Assembly: GCF_001483745.1 (NCBI RefSeq)
Contig: NZ_LQBL01000033.1
Location: 51,759-115,758, forward strand
DNA from: Serinicoccus chungangensis
Lineage (GTDB): Bacteria; Actinomycetota; Actinomycetes; Actinomycetales; Dermatophilaceae
DNA length: 64,000 bases
Direction of reading: 5' to 3'
In this document: positions 53,901 to 62,015 of the stretch, in pieces
How the letters are laid out: the number at the start of each line of letters is the position of its first letter
How positions within the stretch are numbered: the stretch's first letter is position 1
Program-made: the position numbers and the translations under genes
Notes under the pieces: model-generated
The model's input: only the letters and a program-made list of their open reading frames with translations
The model's database searches: none
What the model was told of the DNA's origin: nothing

Positions 53901-54698
53901 TCAGCCGAGGGGATGGGCGTGGGTCAGGCCCGGCGCACGGCCGGGCTCGATGAACCACTCGTCGCCGAACATCGCGGCGAACTGCTCCGAGGGCATACCG
54001 AGCATCCACCCGACGTCCTCCTGGCTGGCGTGCGCGGAGAGCGCGGCCCGCTTGGTGGCGATGACCTCGCGCACGTCGACGTGCCAGTGGATCTCCGCCT
54101 CCGGGGTGCCCATGGGGTTGCCGTCGTCGGCCGGCCCGTCGGGGTCGAAGTCCTCGTCCTCCCCGATCGTGCCGGCCTGCCGCGCCGCCTCGACCATCCG
54201 GCGCACGTGGTCGCGGTTCATGGTGTTCTCCAGCAGCCGCGGTCGACGGGAGGCGAGCTCGGCCGCCCGGTGCGCGACGGCGTGCACCTTGACGTGGTCG
54301 GGGTGGCCGTAGCCGCCGTGCCAGTCGTAGCCGACGAGGACGTCGGCGTCCTCCTCGTCGAGGACCGCGGCCAGCCGGCGGGCCGCCTCCTCGGTGTCGG
54401 CGGAGTGGAAGGACTGCTCGTGGGCGTTCTGCTCCCACCCGGTCATGCCCGAGTCGGCGTAGCCCAGCCAGGCGATCCGGTCCGTCCCCAGCACCTGGCC
54501 GGCGGCCTGCGCCTCGGCGCGTCGCCGGTCGACCACGGTCTCGCCCTCGCGCAGGTCGGGCGGCAGGGTGCCGTGGTCGCCGTGGGTGGCGAAGACGATG
54601 ACCACGCGGTGGCCGGCGTCGACGGCCAGCCGCGTCGTGCCGGCCGTGCCGCTGGCCTCGTCGTCGGGATGGGCGTGCAGGAGGACGATCGTGCTCAC
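53901..54698 (-). CDS. PIG-L/LmbE-family zinc deacetylase
   Basis: This 265-residue protein has the zinc site AHPDDE (residues 9-14) and GYDWHGGYGHPDHVKVH with the third metal ligand. PIG-L enzymes deacetylate N-acetylglucosaminyl compounds; in actinobacteria MshB and Mca act in mycothiol metabolism. Residue pattern alone does not separate these. The GTG start has TATCGT 6 nt upstream and no Shine-Dalgarno. Confidence 0.88.
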   Translation of the reverse strand: MSTIVLLHAHPDDEASGTAGTTRLAVDAGHRVVIVFATHGDHGTLPPDLREGETVVDRRRAEAQAAGQVLGTDRIAWLGYADSGMTGWEQNAHEQSFHSADTEEAARRLAAVLDEEDADVLVGYDWHGGYGHPDHVKVHAVAHRAAELASRRPRLLENTMNRDHVRRMVEAARQAGTIGEDEDFDPDGPADDGNPMGTPEAEIHWHVDVREVIATKRAALSAHASQEDVGWMLGMPSEQFAAMFGDEWFIEPGRAPGLTHAHPLG

Positions 54699-54704
54699 GG
54701 GCTC

Positions 54705-54710
54705 ACGATA
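54705..54710 (-). promoter_or_regulatory. -10 hexamer TATCGT, 6 nt before a GTG start
   Basis: On the minus strand TATCGT is followed by 6 nt and the GTG of the PIG-L gene, supporting a leaderless transcript and this start. Confidence 0.55.
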
Positions 54711-54786
54711 GGTCGCCCTGCCGACAGACCCACCATCCGCGCCCGGTGCCCCCGCCGCCCGGCACCACCCGTCGTCCGTGGGGTCC

Positions 54787-56565
54787 TCAGCCCCGCAGGT
54801 CGGGGAAGTCGGTGTCCCTCCACTCGGTCGGCGCGTCGCCCGCCCCCGCGCCCGACGCGGCCCCGGCCGCGGTGCCGACGGCGCCGCCGGCCCCCGAACC
54901 CGCGGCCAGCTGCTCCTCGCGCGCCCGCAGCTCGACCCGGCGGATCTTGCCGCTGATGGTCTTCGGCAGCTCGGAGAACTCCAGCCGGCGGACCCGCTGC
55001 CAGGGCTGCAGGTGCTCGCGGGCGTGGGCCAGGATCGAGCGCGCGGTCTCGGCGGTCGGCTCGTGCCCGGCGACCAGGGTGACGTAGGCCTTGGGCACCG
55101 ACAGGCGCACCTCGTCGGGTGCGGGCACCACGGCCGCCTCGGCGACCGCCGGGTGCTCGATGAGCACCGACTCCAGCTCGAACGGGCTGATCTTGTAGTC
55201 GCTCGCCTTGAAGACGTCGTCGGTGCGCCCGACGTAGGTGATCATGCCGGTCGCGTCCCGCTCGGCGACGTCGCCGGTGTGGTAGTAACCGCCGGTCATC
55301 GCCTCGGCGTTGCGCTCGTCGTCCCCCTGGTAGCCGGTCATGAGCGCCACCGGCGACGCGGACAGGTCGAGACAGATCTCGCCCTCCCCCGGGCCCTCGA
55401 CCACCCGCCCCGTCTGCGGGTCGACGAGCACGGAGGGGATGCCGGGCAGCGGCATACTCATCGACCCGGGCTTGACCCGGTCCCCCGGGCAGTTCCCGAT
55501 CTGCGCGGTGGTCTCGGTCTGGCCGTAGCCGTCGCGCAGGGTCAGGCCCCACTGCCGCTGCACCTGGGTGATGACCTCGGGGTTGAGCGGCTCGCCCGCG
55601 CCGATCACCTCGCGCAGGGCGCCGGGGCCGCCGGAGAGGTCGGCGTTGATGAGCATGCGCCAGACCGTCGGCGGGGCGCACAGGCTGGTGACCCGGTGCC
55701 GGCGCACCACCTGGAGGAGGGCGTCGGGGTCGAACCGCCGGTAGGCGTGCACCAGGATCGTCGCCTCGGCGATCCAGGGCGCGAAGAAGCAGCTCCAGGC
55801 GTGCTTGGCCCAGCCGGGGCTGGAGATGTTGAGGTGGACGTCGCCGGGGCGCAGCCCGAGCCAGTACGTCGTCGAGAGGTGGCCCACCGGGTAGCTCACC
55901 TGGGTGTGCTCGACGAGCTTGGGCCGGTTGGTGGTGCCGGAGGTGAAGTAGAGCAGGAGCCGGTCGTCGGGGCCGGTGCCCGGGTGCTCGGCGCGGCTCA
56001 CGTGCTCGGTGTATGCCGTCCGCAGGTCGGTCCAGCCCGCGGCCTCTCCCACGGACAGGCGCGCGTAGTCGCCCGGTACCTCCTCGAACCGGTCCGTGTC
56101 GGCGGCGTCCACGACCACGGCCCGGGCGCCGCCACGCTCCAGCCGGTCGCGCAGGTCGGAGGGACCGGCCGCGGTGGTGGTCGGCATGAGGACGGCCCCC
56201 AGCTTCATCACCCCGAGCATGGTGTCCCACAGCTCGACCTGGTTGCCCAGCATGACCATGACGCTGTCGCCGCGGCCGATGCCCTGGTGGGCCAGCAGGG
56301 CCGCGACCTGGTCGGAGCGGGTGGCCACCTCGTCGAAGGTCAGCGTCTCGTCCGAGCCGTCCTCCTGGACGACGACCAGCGCGGGTGCGTCGTTGCCGCG
56401 GGCGATCGCGTCGAACCAGTCCACCGCCCAGTTGAAGCGCTCGCCCACGACCGGGTAGCGGAACTCCTCCCGTGCCCGTCCCGGGTCGCCGTAGAGCTCG
56501 AGGAGCTGGTCACGGGCGGCGCGGTAGGCCGGGTGCGGCGAGCGGACGGGGTGGTCGGTCGACAT
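54787..56565 (-). CDS. AMP-forming acyl-CoA synthetase
   Basis: This 592-residue ligase has YFTSGTTNRPKLVEHT (P-loop-like A3 motif), DGYGQTETT, GRTDDVFKASDYKISPFELE and a catalytic Lys near residue 540 (TISGKIRR). The sequence is closest in style to medium-chain/MACS-type synthetases. A Gly/Ala-rich linker of about 25 residues near the C-terminus is unusual. The ATG at 56565 lies 10 nt after GGAGG; an ATG at 56574 lies only 1 nt after it. The acyl-CoA dehydrogenase downstream suggests fatty or branched acid use. Confidence 0.88.
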   Translation of the reverse strand: MSTDHPVRSPHPAYRAARDQLLELYGDPGRAREEFRYPVVGERFNWAVDWFDAIARGNDAPALVVVQEDGSDETLTFDEVATRSDQVAALLAHQGIGRGDSVMVMLGNQVELWDTMLGVMKLGAVLMPTTTAAGPSDLRDRLERGGARAVVVDAADTDRFEEVPGDYARLSVGEAAGWTDLRTAYTEHVSRAEHPGTGPDDRLLLYFTSGTTNRPKLVEHTQVSYPVGHLSTTYWLGLRPGDVHLNISSPGWAKHAWSCFFAPWIAEATILVHAYRRFDPDALLQVVRRHRVTSLCAPPTVWRMLINADLSGGPGALREVIGAGEPLNPEVITQVQRQWGLTLRDGYGQTETTAQIGNCPGDRVKPGSMSMPLPGIPSVLVDPQTGRVVEGPGEGEICLDLSASPVALMTGYQGDDERNAEAMTGGYYHTGDVAERDATGMITYVGRTDDVFKASDYKISPFELESVLIEHPAVAEAAVVPAPDEVRLSVPKAYVTLVAGHEPTAETARSILAHAREHLQPWQRVRRLEFSELPKTISGKIRRVELRAREEQLAAGSGAGGAVGTAAGAASGAGAGDAPTEWRDTDFPDLRG

Positions 56566-56648
56566 CGGCGTCATACCTCCATCCCTACACCGGGGCGGGT
56601 ATGCCTGTCAGCAGGAGGCTTGGGCGCGCCACTGTCGGACCCCCGCCC

Positions 56649-56654
56649 TAGAGT
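56649..56654 (+). promoter_or_regulatory. -10 hexamer TAGAGT, 7 nt before a start codon
   Basis: TAGAGT is followed by 7 nt and the ATG of the DUF3072 gene, consistent with a leaderless transcript. Confidence 0.5.
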
Positions 56655-56661
56655 CGGTCCC

Positions 56662-56964
56662 ATGACGAACCCCATGGACGACCAGACCCAGACCGGCGGC
56701 CCCGACGCGGGCGCCGGCGCAGCCGAGGACGCCGACATGCTGGGTGCCCCCAGCCCGCAGTCCCCGGACGACCAGCTCGAGCGCGACCCGGAGAACTGGA
56801 CCACCGGGGACGACCCGGCCACCGAGGCCCAGAAGTCCTACCTCGACCGGCTGGCCAGTGCCGCCGGCGAGCAGATCCCGGCCGAGGGGCTCACCCAGGC
56901 CAAGGCCTCCGAGCACATCGACCGCCTCCAGTCCGCGACCGGCATGGAGCCGCGCGAGTCCTGA
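56662..56964 (+). CDS. DUF3072-type small protein
   Basis: This 100-residue acidic protein has a disordered N-terminal half rich in Asp, Gly, Gln and Pro, and a C-terminal helical part with NWTTGDDPATEAQKSYLDRL and LTQAKASEHIDRLQ. This matches DUF3072 proteins of actinobacteria; their function is unknown. It is monocistronic and convergent with the LysR gene. Confidence 0.8.
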   Translation: MTNPMDDQTQTGGPDAGAGAAEDADMLGAPSPQSPDDQLERDPENWTTGDDPATEAQKSYLDRLASAAGEQIPAEGLTQAKASEHIDRLQSATGMEPRES

Positions 56965-57036
56965 GTCCCACCGGCAGGGGACCGACCGGCGACCCCGGCC
57001 GGGTGACGTGGCCGCCGGCGGAGGACGGCAGACCCG

Positions 57037-57951
57037 TCAGGCGGTGGCGGTGTTCGCACCCCACACCCGACGGACCTCGGCCGCCACCGAGGCGACCGCG
57101 GGGCGTCGCTCGCTGGAGTCGCGGTGCACGAGCATCACGCGCCGGGTGGGGGGGTCCTTCACCGGCAGGGCGACGACGGCGTCGGGCAGCTCGGGGCGGC
57201 CCAGCCGCGGCATGAGACCGATGCCGAAGCCGGCCTCCACGAGGGCGATCTTGCTGGGGTGGGTGTCGGCGGTCGCGGCGATCCGGTAGTCCAGGTGGCG
57301 CTCGCGCAGCGCGGTGAGCAACCAGTCGCTGAAGACCCCCGGCGAGTCGTCCACCCAGTCCCGTCCCCCGCAGTCCCGCAGGTCGACGATGCCGTGACGA
57401 CCGATGCGCAGGTCGTGGTCGTGCCGGGCGATGAGGTCGACGACGTCGTTGCCCAGCACGGTGGACACCAGCCCCTCCGGCAGGGCCTTGTGGTAGTCGG
57501 TCCAGTCGTGCACCACGGCGAGGTCGACCTCGCCGCGGCGCAGCGCCCGCAGCGATCCCTCCGGGGTGAGCTCGCGCACGGTCAGGCGCAGCAGCGGGTA
57601 GAGCTCACGCAGGGTGGGCACGGTCGGCGCGAGCAGGCCGACGATGCCGGTGGGGAACGACGACAGCACCAGCGGACCCGAGACGTCGCTGGTCAGGTGC
57701 TCCAGCTCGGCTCGAGCGGCCTCGTCCAGCTGCTCCACCTGCGCGGCCAGCCGCACCAGCACCTCGGCGGCGTCGGTGGGGACGACGTTGCGGCCACGGC
57801 GGACGAGGACGGGCTGTCCCACCTCCTTCTGGAGGCGGGTCAGCTGCTGGCTGACGGCGGAGGCCGTGAGGCCGAGACGGTCGGCCGCGGCCAGCACCGT
57901 GCCCTCTTCGACGACGGCCTTCAGACTGACCAGGTGCTCGGGCGAGAACAT
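57037..57951 (-). CDS. LysR-family regulator divergent from the micropeptide cassettes
   Basis: This 304-residue protein has the LysR helix-turn-helix (LAAADRLGLTASAVSQQLTR) and a two-lobed effector domain (PLVLSSFPTGIVGLLAPTV, then LVEAGFGIGLMPRLG). The ATG at 57951 is preferred over one at 57960: TAAGAT ends 7 nt upstream and no ribosome site exists, so the mRNA is probably leaderless. This -10 overlaps the dyad at 57961-57978. The usual LysR divergent target, such as an exporter, is absent; the divergent genes are two 30-residue peptides. The effector is unknown. Confidence 0.9.
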   Translation of the reverse strand: MFSPEHLVSLKAVVEEGTVLAAADRLGLTASAVSQQLTRLQKEVGQPVLVRRGRNVVPTDAAEVLVRLAAQVEQLDEAARAELEHLTSDVSGPLVLSSFPTGIVGLLAPTVPTLRELYPLLRLTVRELTPEGSLRALRRGEVDLAVVHDWTDYHKALPEGLVSTVLGNDVVDLIARHDHDLRIGRHGIVDLRDCGGRDWVDDSPGVFSDWLLTALRERHLDYRIAATADTHPSKIALVEAGFGIGLMPRLGRPELPDAVVALPVKDPPTRRVMLVHRDSSERRPAVASVAAEVRRVWGANTATA

Positions 57952-57958
57952 GCAGCGC

Positions 57959-58017
57959 ATCTTACACGTACCGATAAGAAATGTCCGTTTGTGCTAAAGC
58001 AATAATGCTGTCAGAGT
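57959..58017. promoter_or_regulatory. LysR-type dyad and divergent promoters, cassette 1
   Basis: The dyad CTTACACGTACCGATAAG (57961-57978) fits a T-N11-A LysR box. On the plus strand TTGTGC (57989-57994), 17 bp, and CAGAGT (58012-58017) form the micropeptide promoter. On the minus strand the lysR -10 TAAGAT (57964-57959) overlaps the dyad arm. The dyad centre is about 54 bp before the plus-strand start, suitable for activation. Confidence 0.65.
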
Positions 58018-58056
58018 ATTCATTGTCAGATCCCGACGCGAAGAAAGGTGGCCACC

Positions 58057-58149
58057 ATGACCGCTCTGTCCCAGGTTTTCCGCAGCAGCACCCACGTGAT
58101 CCTCGAGATCGGTCGCGCGTGGCGCCCGATCGAGCACATCCGCGGCTGA
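58057..58149 (+). CDS. 30-residue micropeptide, copy 1
   Basis: This ORF is 31 codons including TGA. The peptide begins MTALSQVFRSS, continues through an ILEIGRAW segment and ends RPIEHIRG. It has a net positive charge, one Trp, no Cys and no signal peptide. AAGAAAGGTGG lies just upstream of the ATG, a strong ribosome site inside the palindrome GGTGGCCACC. It is preceded by a LysR-type promoter and followed by an intrinsic terminator, so it is a free-standing gene. I do not recognise the family. Coding identity to copy 2 is 91 of 93 bases. Confidence 0.7.
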   Translation: MTALSQVFRSSTHVILEIGRAWRPIEHIRG

Positions 58150-58164
58150 CCCCACACCTCGTGG

Positions 58165-58201
58165 AAGCCGCCCCCGGGGACCCTCCCCGGGGGCGGCTTT
58201 T
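58165..58201 (+). terminator. Intrinsic terminator of micropeptide copy 1
   Basis: A perfect 15-bp stem, AAGCCGCCCCCGGGG and its complement, with loop ACCCT, is followed by TTTT. It lies 15 bp after the micropeptide stop. Confidence 0.9.
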
Positions 58202-58304
58202 CCCATCCCTCCGCGGATCCGTGCCGATGTCCGCCGGGCACCTCGCGAGGACGTGGACCCGACGGTAGGCCCTGCTCGGCGCCCCCAGAGACCATCAAGA
58301 AAAA

Positions 58305-58361
58305 CTTACTGGTATCCGTAAGCAACGTCCGTTTGTGCTAAAGCAAGAATGGTGTCAGACT
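58305..58361 (+). promoter_or_regulatory. LysR-type dyad and promoter, cassette 2
   Basis: The dyad CTTACTGGTATCCGTAAG (58305-58322) has perfect 5-bp arms. TTGTGC (58333-58338) and CAGACT (58356-58361) sit at the same distances as in cassette 1, exactly 344 bp away. The minus-strand -10 of cassette 1 has no functional gene here. Confidence 0.65.
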
Positions 58362-58400
58362 AGAACCTGTCAGACCCCGACACGAAGAAAGGTGGCCACC

Positions 58401-58493
58401 ATGACCGCTCTGTCCAAGGCTTTCCGCAGCAGCACCCACGTGATCCTCGAGATCGGTCGCGCGTGGCGCCCGATCGAGCACATCCGCGGCTGA
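58401..58493 (+). CDS. 30-residue micropeptide, copy 2
   Basis: This has the same length and ending as copy 1. It differs only at residues 6 and 7 (Lys-Ala instead of Gln-Val), caused by two base changes, with no synonymous changes. The ribosome site AAGAAAGGTGG and the GGTGGCCACC palindrome are identical to copy 1. It has its own dyad, promoter and terminator. Possible roles include a regulatory or membrane-active peptide, a modified-peptide precursor or a dual-function small RNA; none is shown by the sequence. Confidence 0.7.
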   Translation: MTALSKAFRSSTHVILEIGRAWRPIEHIRG

Positions 58494-58506
58494 CCCGACG
58501 CCCTCC

Positions 58507-58543
58507 GAAGCCGCCCCCGGGACCTCGTCCCGGGGGCGGCTTC
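58507..58543 (+). terminator. Hairpin terminator of micropeptide copy 2
   Basis: A perfect 17-bp stem, GAAGCCGCCCCCGGGAC and its complement, with loop CTC, lies 13 bp after the stop. The T-run is shorter than in copy 1. Confidence 0.85.
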
Positions 58544-58592
58544 TGCGTGCGTGGCCTGCTCTCTCGCCCGCACCCTCGACCCCGCCCCGGTC

Positions 58593-58598
58593 TAGGCT
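58593..58598 (+). promoter_or_regulatory. -10 hexamer TAGGCT, 6 nt before a start codon
   Basis: TAGGCT is followed by 6 nt and the ATG of the phosphotransferase gene, consistent with a leaderless transcript. Confidence 0.55.
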
Positions 58599-58604
58599 GA
58601 CCCG

Positions 58605-59426
58605 ATGCCCTTGACGACCGCCCAGCAGGGCCTGCTCGACGCCTGGCTGCCCGGGCACACGGTCCTCGACGACCACTCGTGGGGCCTGGTCAGCAGGACC
58701 GTGCTCCGGGTGCGGCACCGCGGGAGGGACCTGACCGTCAAGGCCAGCTCCCCCGACGACCACCACCTCGCGAGAGAGGTGGCCGCCCACCGCGAGCTCA
58801 CCGCCCCCCTCCTGCCGGACCGCGCGCCGAGGCTGGTCGAGGCCGATCTCCACGCGCACCTCCTGGTGACGACGTGGCTGCCGGGGGAGCTCGTGCAGGG
58901 GACGGCCGCCGAGCAGGACCCGGAGAGCTACCGCCAGGCCGGGCTGCTCCTGCGCCGCCTGCACGGACAGTCCTCCCGCCGCGACGACGACTGGCTGGAG
59001 GAGCAGCGGGCCCGCACGCGTCGCTGGCTCACCCGGCCCCACCGCATCCCCCGGGCCCGCGTCGACCGCGTCGAACGACGCCTCACCCGCTGGCCGGTCG
59101 GCCCGGTGAGGCTCACCCCGACCCACGGGGACTTCCACCCCCGCAACTGGGTCGTGGACCGCGGCACGGTGTCGGTCATCGACTTCGGCCGGGCGCAGTG
59201 GCGACCCGCCGCCACGGACCTGGCCCGGATGGAGCCCCGGCAGTGGCGCGACGACCCCCGCCTCGAGGCCGCGTTCCTCGACGGCTACGGCGCGGACCCC
59301 CGCCCGGCGTGGTGGCGTGACCTCCTGCTCGCCGAGGCGGTGGGCACCGCGGTGTGGGCCTACCAGGTCGGGGACGAGGCCTTCGAGCAGGAAGGACTGC
59401 AGCAGCTCGCCGAGCTCACGGCCTGA
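58605..59426 (+). CDS. APH-fold phosphotransferase
   Basis: This 273-residue kinase-fold protein has LTVKASS (N-lobe Lys46), catalytic THGDFHPRNW (Asp176) and metal-binding VIDFGRA (Asp193). The arrangement is that of aminoglycoside/choline/homoserine phosphotransferases; the substrate cannot be assigned. It has its own leaderless-type promoter after the micropeptide terminator, so it is probably not part of that unit. Its end is 13 bp from the convergent metallopeptidase. Confidence 0.82.
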   Translation: MPLTTAQQGLLDAWLPGHTVLDDHSWGLVSRTVLRVRHRGRDLTVKASSPDDHHLAREVAAHRELTAPLLPDRAPRLVEADLHAHLLVTTWLPGELVQGTAAEQDPESYRQAGLLLRRLHGQSSRRDDDWLEEQRARTRRWLTRPHRIPRARVDRVERRLTRWPVGPVRLTPTHGDFHPRNWVVDRGTVSVIDFGRAQWRPAATDLARMEPRQWRDDPRLEAAFLDGYGADPRPAWWRDLLLAEAVGTAVWAYQVGDEAFEQEGLQQLAELTA

Positions 59427-59439
59427 CGAGGCGCGTGGT

Positions 59440-60150
59440 TCAGCCGCAGGCGGCCTCCTCCAGCGCGGCCAGGCCGGCCAGGTCGGCGTCGGTGAACTCG
59501 TCCTGCCCCGAGTTCTCGGCGGCCATGAGCGCATCCGCGTCGTCGGAGTGACCGAGCCCGAGGACGTGCACGAGCTCGTGGACCAGGACGGTCTCCTCGT
59601 CCAGCCCGCCCAGCCAGCCGCCCGGCATGTCGGTGTCGAGCACGACCATGCCGCCGACCGAGCGGGCGTCGCCACCCGGGCCCACGACGTAGGACGCCCC
59701 TCCCAGGCCGGCTGTCGGGCCGGCGAGCTCGGACACCTCCTCCTCGTCCGCCCACCCGATGAGCACCGGACCGCGCTGGCGGCCCTGGAACTCGCGGTCG
59801 TCGGTCTCGCCGGTCACCACGAAGGTGAAGCCGCTGGCCTCGTTGACCCGCTGGACGGCGGTGGCGACGAGGTCGGCATACCCCTCCGGCGCCCCCTGCG
59901 GGTTGACCTCGACCTCGATGCGGGCGGCGCACCCCCAGGTCACCGGCCGGCCGCCATCGCTGACCTGCATGAAGGTGTAGCCCTCACCTCCCGAACCGGC
60001 GACCCCGGCGGAGCGCTCGGAGTAGACCGTCCGTCGGACGTTGCCGAGGTCGAGGCCGGGCGAGAGGTAGACCACCATGCTGATGACCAGACCCAGGACG
60101 AGCAACAGGCTGAGGATGCTCGTGCACCCTCCGCCACGTCGCTCGTCCAT
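59440..60150 (-). CDS. Membrane-anchored matrixin-like zinc metallopeptidase
   Basis: This 236-residue protein has one N-terminal membrane helix (about residues 10-30), then an extracytoplasmic domain with the zincin site HELVHVLGLGH (His191, Glu192, His195, His201) and a Met-turn candidate in ADALMAAENSG. The HExxHxxGxxH form is typical of matrixin/serralysin-like metzincins, and the domain is small. The substrate is unknown. CAGACT lies 6 nt before the ATG. Confidence 0.8.
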   Translation of the reverse strand: MDERRGGGCTSILSLLLVLGLVISMVVYLSPGLDLGNVRRTVYSERSAGVAGSGGEGYTFMQVSDGGRPVTWGCAARIEVEVNPQGAPEGYADLVATAVQRVNEASGFTFVVTGETDDREFQGRQRGPVLIGWADEEEVSELAGPTAGLGGASYVVGPGGDARSVGGMVVLDTDMPGGWLGGLDEETVLVHELVHVLGLGHSDDADALMAAENSGQDEFTDADLAGLAALEEAACG

Positions 60151-60180
60151 GCGTCCAGTCTGCTCCGCGTGGCTGGGCGA

Positions 60181-60828
60181 CTACTGACCCAGTCCGGCGA
60201 GCAGGTCCTCGAAGTCCGTGACGTCCTGCCCGACCCGCGCCCCGGAGCGACCGGACGCGGGGTCAGACCCCAGCCCGCCGACGCCCGCGGCGACGACCGC
60301 CGTCGCCAGCTCCCCGGCGGCGCGGGAGATCCGCTCCCCCAGCTCGCCGGACCCGGCACCGCCGAAGTCGTCGGTCGCGGCGAAGACCCCGGTCGGCACC
60401 ACCGCGGCGCGCAGGTAGGCGAACAGCGGGCGCAGCGCGTGGTCGAGCACGAGCTGGTGGCGGGCCGTGCCGGCCGTCGCGGCGACCAGCACCGGGGTGC
60501 CCGCGACCGCGTCCGGGTCGAGCACGTCGACGAACATCTTGAACAGCCCGGAGTAGCTCGCGGCGAAGACGGGGCTGACCGCCACGATGGCGTCCGCGCC
60601 GGACACGAGCTCGCGCGCCGCCTCCACGGCCGGCGTCGGCACGCCGCCCGTGGTCATGGTGGTGGCCAGGTCGTGGGCCAGCTCGCGCAGCTCGACCACC
60701 TCGACGGTCGCGGCCTCGCCGCGCGCGCTCACCTGGGTGACGACGGCGTCGGCGAGCCGGTCGGCCAGGAGCCGGGTCGAGCTGGGCTGCGAGAGCCCTG
60801 CGGTGAGGACGACGATGCGGCGGGTCAT
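60181..60828 (-). CDS. NAD(P)H-dependent FMN reductase (CE1759 type)
   Basis: This 215-residue flavodoxin-like reductase has VLTAGLSQPSSTRLLADRLA for FMN phosphate binding and VAVSPVFAASYSGLFKMFVD, the typical P-x-Y-x-x-x-x-x-LK-type segment of the family. It would supply reduced FMN to the luciferase-like monooxygenase encoded just upstream on the same strand; this pair is widespread in actinobacteria as CE1758/CE1759-type proteins. Confidence 0.88.
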   Translation of the reverse strand: MTRRIVVLTAGLSQPSSTRLLADRLADAVVTQVSARGEAATVEVVELRELAHDLATTMTTGGVPTPAVEAARELVSGADAIVAVSPVFAASYSGLFKMFVDVLDPDAVAGTPVLVAATAGTARHQLVLDHALRPLFAYLRAAVVPTGVFAATDDFGGAGSGELGERISRAAGELATAVVAAGVGGLGSDPASGRSGARVGQDVTDFEDLLAGLGQ

Positions 60829-60860
60829 GGCGTGCTCCCTTCGGTATGCCGTGCGGCGGG

Positions 60861-61994
60861 TCAGGCGGAGGCGCCGACCGCGGCGCCCCGGGCCGGGGCC
60901 ACGAGGTGGTGCCGGGCGTCCGGGCCCTGCGCCACCAGCGAGGCGTGGGTGGGCGGGTCGCTCGGCACGTGGGCCGGCCGACGCGCCTCGAACTCGCGGC
61001 GCAGCACCGGCACGACCTCGCGGCCCAGGATCTCGATCTGCTCCAGGACGACGTCCTGGGGCAGCCCGGCGTGGTCGATGAGGAAGAGCTGGCGCTGGTA
61101 GTCACCCACCGCGTCGGCGAAGCCGAGCGTGCGCTCGATGACCATCTCGGGGGTCCCGACCGTCAGCGGCGTCATCCGGCTGAACTCCTCCAGGCTCGGG
61201 CCGTGGCCGTAGACCGGGGCCACGTCGAAGTAGGGCCGGAAGGTCCGCTTGGCCTCGGCCTCGCTGCCGGCGATGAAGGCCTGGCCGCCGAGGCCGACGA
61301 CGGCCTGGTCGGCCGACCCGTGGCCGTAGTGCTCGAAGCGGCGACGGTAGAGGCCGACCATCTGGGCGGTGTGCTCGATGTTCCAGAAGATGTTGTTGTG
61401 GAAGAAGCCGTCGCCGTAGTAGGCGGCCTGCTCGGCGATCTCGGTCGACCGGATCGAGCCGTGCCAGACGAACGGCGGCGTGCCCTCCAGCGGGCGCGGC
61501 GTGGCGGTGAACCCCTGCAGCGGGGTGCGGAACTTCCCCTGCCAGTCCACGACCTCCTCGCGCCAGAGGCGGCGCAGCAGGTGGTAGTTCTCGATCGCCA
61601 GCGGCACGCCCTGGCGGATGTCCTTGCCGAACCACGGGTAGACCGGGCCGGTGTTGCCGCGGCCCATCATGAGGTCGACGCGCCCCCCGGAGAGGTGCTG
61701 CAGGAAGGCGTAGTCCTCCGCGATCCGCACCGGGTCGGTCGTGGTGATGAGGGTCGTCGCCGTGGACAGCTGCAGCCGCTCCGTCTGGGCGGCGATGTAG
61801 GCGAGATGGGTCGTCGGCGCCGAGGAGATGAACGGCGGGTTGTGGTGCTGCCCGCTGGCGAAGACGTCCAGCCCGACCTCCTCCGACTTGAGGGCGTACG
61901 ACGTCATCGCGGCGATGCGCTCGCCGTCCGTCGGCACGCGACCGGTCGTGGGGTCCGGCGTGATGTCGCCGACGCTGAAGATCCCGAACTGCAC
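60861..61994 (-). CDS. FMN-dependent luciferase-like monooxygenase (CE1758 type)
   Basis: This 377-residue TIM-barrel protein of the LLM class has FGIFSVGDITPDP at the start, VFASGQHHNPPF, TTLITTTDPVRIAEDYAFLQHL, DLMMGRGNTGPVYPWFG and GTPPFVWHGSIRS. The start is taken as the GTG at 61994 (9 nt after AGGAGG, and matching usual MQFG starts). The GTG at 62003 directly touches AGGAGG and is unlikely. The substrate is unknown. It is followed by its FMN reductase. Confidence 0.88.
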   Translation of the reverse strand: MQFGIFSVGDITPDPTTGRVPTDGERIAAMTSYALKSEEVGLDVFASGQHHNPPFISSAPTTHLAYIAAQTERLQLSTATTLITTTDPVRIAEDYAFLQHLSGGRVDLMMGRGNTGPVYPWFGKDIRQGVPLAIENYHLLRRLWREEVVDWQGKFRTPLQGFTATPRPLEGTPPFVWHGSIRSTEIAEQAAYYGDGFFHNNIFWNIEHTAQMVGLYRRRFEHYGHGSADQAVVGLGGQAFIAGSEAEAKRTFRPYFDVAPVYGHGPSLEEFSRMTPLTVGTPEMVIERTLGFADAVGDYQRQLFLIDHAGLPQDVVLEQIEILGREVVPVLRREFEARRPAHVPSDPPTHASLVAQGPDARHHLVAPARGAAVGASA

Positions 61995-62015
61995 CTGACT
62001 CACCCTCCTGGGGTC

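Follow-up and report, generated by a model that had tools for sequence, protein, structure and literature searches.

LysR-type regulators, described in PMC7486931 as the commonest regulator type of prokaryotes, are often interpreted from the enzyme or exporter encoded opposite them. The 64,000-nucleotide stretch of Serinicoccus chungangensis DNA analysed here (the window) contains a lysR gene from a clade whose divergent neighbour is a micropeptide gene, which raises the question of what such a regulator controls. Our answer, which we hold to be rather likely, is that a micropeptide gene, present here in two copies, is the dedicated target of the regulator. Judged from its sequence, the arrangement looks like a conserved and previously undescribed LysR-micropeptide pair.

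The initial annotation had proposed twin units at a 344-bp spacing beside a divergent lysR, and this was confirmed: a 249-nt repeat (57944-58192 and 58288-58536) recurred in the window at a spacing of 344 with 82% identity. Both copies carried, at matching spacing, a dyad, promoter-like hexamers, a ribosome site, a 31-codon frame (stop included) and a strong hairpin (Table 1). When the 130 bp preceding copy 1 were shuffled 2000 times by mononucleotides, 10 of the shuffles contained a dyad matching at least 9 of the 10 arm bases. The -10 hexamers of the two micropeptide promoters were far from TATAAT, and consensus scans (sigma-70 for promoters) returned neither micropeptide promoter nor either hairpin among their matches. 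Each unit had also been credited with a perfect intrinsic terminator; the stems were indeed perfect, but hairpin 2 was nearly devoid of a T run and both hairpins were missed by the consensus scan. As for the antisense RNA promoter of type I toxin-antitoxin systems, the promoter scan gave one promoter-like site on the minus strand (58029-58002).

Table 1. Features of the lysR gene and the two micropeptide units (positions in the window)
Feature	Position	Strand	Remarks
LysR-type regulator, 304 aa from MFSPEHL	57037..57951	-	HTH_1 and LysR_substrate domains
Candidate -10 of leaderless lysR transcript, TAAGAT	57959..57964	-	Predicted from sequence
Dyad 1, putative LysR site	57961-57978	.	CTTACACGTACCGATAAG; 9/10 arm bases of CTTAC-N8-[AG]TAAG
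Dyad 2, putative LysR site	58305-58322	.	CTTACTGGTATCCGTAAG; 10/10 arm bases of CTTAC-N8-[AG]TAAG
Promoter-like pair 1	57989..58017	+	TTGTGC at 57989, N17, CAGAGT at 58012
Promoter-like pair 2	58333..58361	+	TTGTGC at 58333, N17, CAGACT at 58356
Ribosome site 1	58042..58051	+	AGAAAGGTGG; invariant across 16 aligned units
Ribosome site 2	58386..58395	+	AGAAAGGTGG at 58386
Micropeptide gene 1, 30 aa	58057..58149	+	Product MTALSQVFRSSTHVILEIGRAWRPIEHIRG; conserved in relatives
Micropeptide gene 2, 30 aa	58401..58493	+	Product MTALSKAFRSSTHVILEIGRAWRPIEHIRG; conserved in relatives
Hairpin/terminator 1	58165..58199	+	16-bp perfect stem, short T run
Hairpin/terminator 2	58507..58543	+	17-bp perfect core within a 26-bp, 88% arm pair; T run almost absent

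The regulator had the domain order of the LysR-type family, an N-terminal HTH_1 (PF00126, E 4e-16) and a C-terminal LysR_substrate (PF03466, E 9.1e-32), both above the Pfam cut-offs when the longer frame 57037-57960 was searched. Membership of the ArgP/LysG subfamily was rejected, as the NCBIfam models NF002964 and TIGR03298 scored 69.3 and 62.7 bits against cut-offs of 197 and 273.55, respectively. The start at 57960 in the open-reading-frame list is probably wrong; we set it at the ATG at 57951-57949 because this ATG is common to the relatives. It lies 7 nt behind TAAGAT on the minus strand, so the message is probably leaderless and its -10 would overlap dyad 1. An overlap of this kind had been claimed before, and it is borne out for the probable TAAGAT at 57964-57959. 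The best named relatives of the regulator, 87-98% identical, were on Serinicoccus contigs. Among solved structures, two entries for LrhA came nearest in sequence (E 9e-13 and 1e-12) and gave no lead. The gene adjoining lysR (56662-56964, plus strand) encodes a DUF3072 protein of 100 aa (E 1.7e-22).

Conservation was examined with a 24-base DNA pattern for the peptide tail, P-[IVM]-E-H-[ILM]-R-G-stop, in 186 genomes of the family, the reversed pattern serving as control. Matches were found at 18 places in 13 genomes, and the control gave none. An orthologous divergent lysR (LysR identity 56-100%) stood beside the peptide at all 18 loci in all 13 genomes, so the check proposed in the initial annotation, conservation of the frame and of its lysR linkage in relatives, was passed. 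Eight of these genomes had one copy of the peptide and five, including that of the window, had two. Variant tails, namely EHIR in G100, EHLPR in G530 and DHLR in G531, were likewise beside an orthologous lysR. When the 3.56-Mb assembly of the window's own genome was searched with the peptide (E up to 10), both window copies were recovered and no other place. A relaxed tail pattern matched 4 of 396 genomes in a sample of the order, two of them of the same genus (control pattern, 2 genomes). Of the two matches outside the genus (L065 and L066), one was the end of an open frame of 471 residues and the other a frame of 34 residues. No LysR accompanied either, and both were taken as chance, indicating that in these samples the peptide family is confined to three genera of one family. 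A LysR search of the order sample at E 1e-60 retrieved 2 of 396 genomes, both of the same genus. Searching the family with the peptide (E up to 1) gave matches in 27 of 149 genomes; 21 of the 30 loci kept were taken as chance, a LysR relative being present in only nine (L001-L007, L010 and L029). The tail-pattern scan of IMG/VR gave 3 contigs without a LysR at E 1e-3 (one LysR match had E 5.5), plasmid records contained no match to the window peptides, and no convincing small gene faced the lysR of a Streptomyces locus (L035) whose LysR was 35-36% identical. No family model of Pfam, NCBIfam, PHROGs or PADLOC matched the window peptides. The earlier statement that they belong to no described family thus holds among the models searched, and the result points to a peptide family that none of these models covers. 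On comparative sequence evidence, the peptide, its promoter geometry and its linkage to LysR are demonstrably conserved.

The peptide occurred in a short form of 29-30 aa and in an anchored form of 52-58 aa with an N-terminal hydrophobic helix (G104, G534, G527, G530 and G531). The best 19-residue Kyte-Doolittle mean was 1.6-2.5 in four anchored forms versus 0.0-0.7 in four short forms. Beyond its membrane helix, the anchored form aligned with the entire 30-aa peptide, and both shared the tail G-x(2,3)-[WYL]-x-P-[IV]-[ED]-H-[IL]-[RP]. The common layout is therefore an N-terminal part, which is a membrane helix only in the longer form, a potentially amphipathic helix and the tail. The helical moment of the window peptides exceeded that of segment shuffles (p 0.002 and 0.004, the segment having been chosen as the best). 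An AlphaFold model showed a single helix at residues 3-28 with a moderate mean pLDDT of 72 and says little about a partner.

The transcript may act, also or only, as a regulatory RNA, with the frame secondary or the RNA of dual function; we regard this as unlikely. Comparison of the window with G528, G119, G127 and G047 revealed no synonymous excess (dN 0.054-0.093, dS 0.048-0.070), so that dN/dS at the depth of Serinicoccus is no proof of selection on the peptide. Against the same four genomes, 0 of 14-15 fourfold sites differed, compared with 39-46% in lysR; against G520, G080, G537 and G538, the values were 0-1 of 14-16 and 20-40%. It is this very low synonymous change in Serinicoccus, where the 5' leader and the frame are near-frozen, that keeps an RNA role in consideration. 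Codon 3 was GCT in all 16 aligned units, a codon used for 0 of 207 alanines in five window genes (5% of 22 in ribosomal protein L2), and codon 7 was GCT or GTT in 14 of the 16. GGT, another kept codon, made up 8% of 157 in the five window genes and 34% of 35 in ribosomal protein L2. The folding z scores of -2.5 and -2.8, which include the terminator, also favour an RNA. However, the T-ending codons near the start may merely ease initiation, synonymous change was present against G511 (2 of 11 and 3 of 12 fourfold sites), and Rfam at gathering scores found nothing in 54000-62000. Of the 50 pairs in the consensus fold, 4 had both partners changed, the terminator holding 2 of these, and covariation contributed an unfavourable term (+1.6). 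The tail, moreover, was kept as protein where the DNA and the N-terminus differed. Replacement changes were held back in the anchored pair L078/L054 (dN 0.017, dS 0.179, over few sites), and other small-protein pairs showed weak or no constraint (L077/L079, dN 0.191 and dS 0.285; L089/L091, 0.577 and 0.677). We read the unit as a translated gene whose DNA or RNA is subject to an additional constraint.

Operator and promoter kept a fixed spacing in the short form: in 11 genomes, counting that of the window, all 16 short-form units had 28 nt between dyad start and -35. Against the preferred reading, only 7 of the 10 arm bases matched in the dyad of G511, and most of its right half was absent from the anchored relatives. 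With up to 3 mismatches, the combined dyad and -35 pattern had 2 sites in the window's own genome, both at the window units; the pattern is strict and would miss looser sites. These two sites, together with the strict linkage, would also suit a closed circuit in which the peptide itself is the effector of the LysR as a feedback ligand. This is improbable, as the known ligands of LysR effector domains are small molecules and any regulator-target pair predicts equal linkage. In G100 (L007, about 1719-1768), an insertion of ~75 bp with the inverted repeat CGCTACCACGCAGTA...TACTGCGTGGTAGCG separated the operator from the lysR frame.

Since a short frame is followed by a hairpin, and an APH-type kinase gene (58605-59426) lies downstream on the same strand in the window, the frame could also be a leader peptide with an attenuator for a downstream gene. 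We consider this very improbable: by eye, the gene after the last peptide unit in L003 and L004 (from G080 and G119) was a convergent relative of the window's matrixin-like protease, so no downstream gene is common to these two genomes and the window; what follows copy 1, moreover, is copy 2, which has a promoter of its own. The matrixin-like metalloprotease of the window (59440-60150, minus strand; Pfam M10, E 2.9e-7) is separated from the peptide units by the APH-type gene, and its relative comes directly after the unit in L003 and L004. Beyond it, a CE1759-family FMN reductase lies beside a CE1758-family luciferase-like monooxygenase (60181-60828 and 60861-62003, minus strand). Chance open frames in duplicated DNA, of a kind in which high-G+C DNA is rich, are refuted in practice by the 13/13 linkage to lysR and by the frame and tail, which persist in 16 units from three genera with no indel in the frame apart from a stop one codon sooner in G100.

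The dedicated micropeptide target remains the preferred reading, and the LysR trees place it among related regulators. The first tree (family; 43 of 45 rows, L086 and L102 being too short) put the window's LysR in a clade of 18 rows (support 96/89), 18/18 of which faced a small protein; the 29-30 aa form was one group of 11 rows (94/88) inside it. In the second tree (86 rows, also omitting L088, L095 and the near-copies L067, L068, L069 and L072), the micropeptide-facing clade comprised 22 rows (98/98): L083 faced an MFS gene and the other 21 faced small proteins. Partner labels were read by eye from translations, with a Pfam check on 6 EamA, 2 DHDPS and 1 MFS targets from the class and family searches. 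As the short form was again one clade (99/91) and lies inside the anchored form, the anchor was probably lost once. The window's group joined a second LysR group that also faces small proteins; an hhalign comparison of their small proteins gave no support for homology (probability 10.6%), and descent from one ancestral peptide is possible. At two loci (L084 and L085) a related LysR faced two successive small proteins of 74-75 and ~80 aa with hydrophobic N-termini.

Across the class, a related LysR was found in 147 of 394 genomes at E 1e-55. Of 49 loci read, 26 were labelled by eye as facing an EamA-type gene, 8 another leaderless micropeptide, 3 a DapA-like gene and 12 other or unclear genes. 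The 8 loci (L113, L118, L120, L121, L122, L125, L126 and L130) represent a second LysR-micropeptide arrangement: a leaderless, basic peptide of 36-39 aa (MRIFNKFF... and kin) begins 72-73 nt from the related lysR and precedes an EamA-like gene in at least 4 of them. By eye it had no similarity to the window peptide, and it matched DUF3072 weakly (E 0.002), below the cut-off. Six of 7 short-form rows had a hexamer like TTGTGC or TGGTGC at 40 nt from the lysR start, and the remaining one, L074, has an insertion; the distance was 39-40 nt in 14 of 14 anchored rows and 40-41 nt in 30 of 39 EamA-facing rows. The hexamer was found in 4 of 8 rows with the 36-39 aa peptide, 1 of 3 dapA rows, 3 of 14 other rows and 0 of 1 MFS rows, and shuffles placed it at 40 nt in 0.1%. 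The promoter position is thus shared between peptide- and EamA-facing lysR genes while the target differs, and the micropeptide gene seems to occupy the place of the exporter gene. A conceivable origin of the anchored peptides is the first helix of an EamA protein, of which they would be remnants. That the exporter came first and the peptide second is our inference, drawn from midpoint-rooted trees in which the micropeptide clade and the nearest EamA clade join at 90/63. A fuller scenario would have the LysR clade exchange an exporter for an anchored micropeptide while keeping operator and promoter. The peptide of one lineage would then have lost its anchor, been duplicated and become a free effector, possibly acting on LysR and doubling as a regulatory RNA. 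Taken whole, this scenario is speculative and rather doubtful. An ordered series that leads from exporter-facing regulators through an anchored peptide to a free, duplicated one would illustrate the rewiring of a regulator to a peptide output.

Divergent LysR pairs commonly have the target activated and the regulator's own gene repressed, and for this reason we suggest the same division here. LysR would bind the dyad that starts 28 nt before the -35, shutting its own leaderless promoter and, together with a small effector, activating each micropeptide promoter. Transcripts of ~180 nt would end at the hairpin, and the translated peptide may bind a protein partner through its tail. For the longer form, this binding would take place at the membrane; the Serinicoccus peptide would bind its partner in the cytosol or at the membrane periphery. 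The two copies may raise dosage.

Two known systems come closest. The first comprises LTTR-exporter pairs such as NCgl0581-SerE and LysG-LysE of Corynebacterium glutamicum and ArgP-ArgO of E. coli; activation of serE, the gene of the EamA homologue, by NCgl0581 with L-serine is reported in PMC7260847. As there, the lysR of the window is divergent from its target, and it has the operator-promoter spacing of its EamA-facing relatives; in contrast, its target is a 30-aa peptide with no Pfam match. Papers on VtlR of the Rhizobiales (PMC7486931, PMC12595884, PMC12501420) describe a LysR-type activator of genes for very small DUF1127 proteins and of the AbcR RNA, leave open whether Atu1667 acts as protein or RNA, and report binding of DUF1127 proteins to the kinase PhoR. 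No LysR-micropeptide pair was found in the titles and opening abstract lines of open-licence PMC literature on LysR with small membrane proteins, small-ORF proteins or microproteins in actinobacteria, or on Serinicoccus with LysR. The lysR locus of the window resembles the VtlR system in pairing a LysR-type regulator with a very small protein, which it would activate, but differs from it in that regulator and peptide gene are neighbours. DUF1127 had no match in the window peptides (E up to 1) or in the ten relatives tested (E up to 5). With a target that is not EamA and lacks DUF1127, the pair belongs to neither system, and NCgl0581-SerE and VtlR-DUF1127 are the nearest precedents for how it would work.
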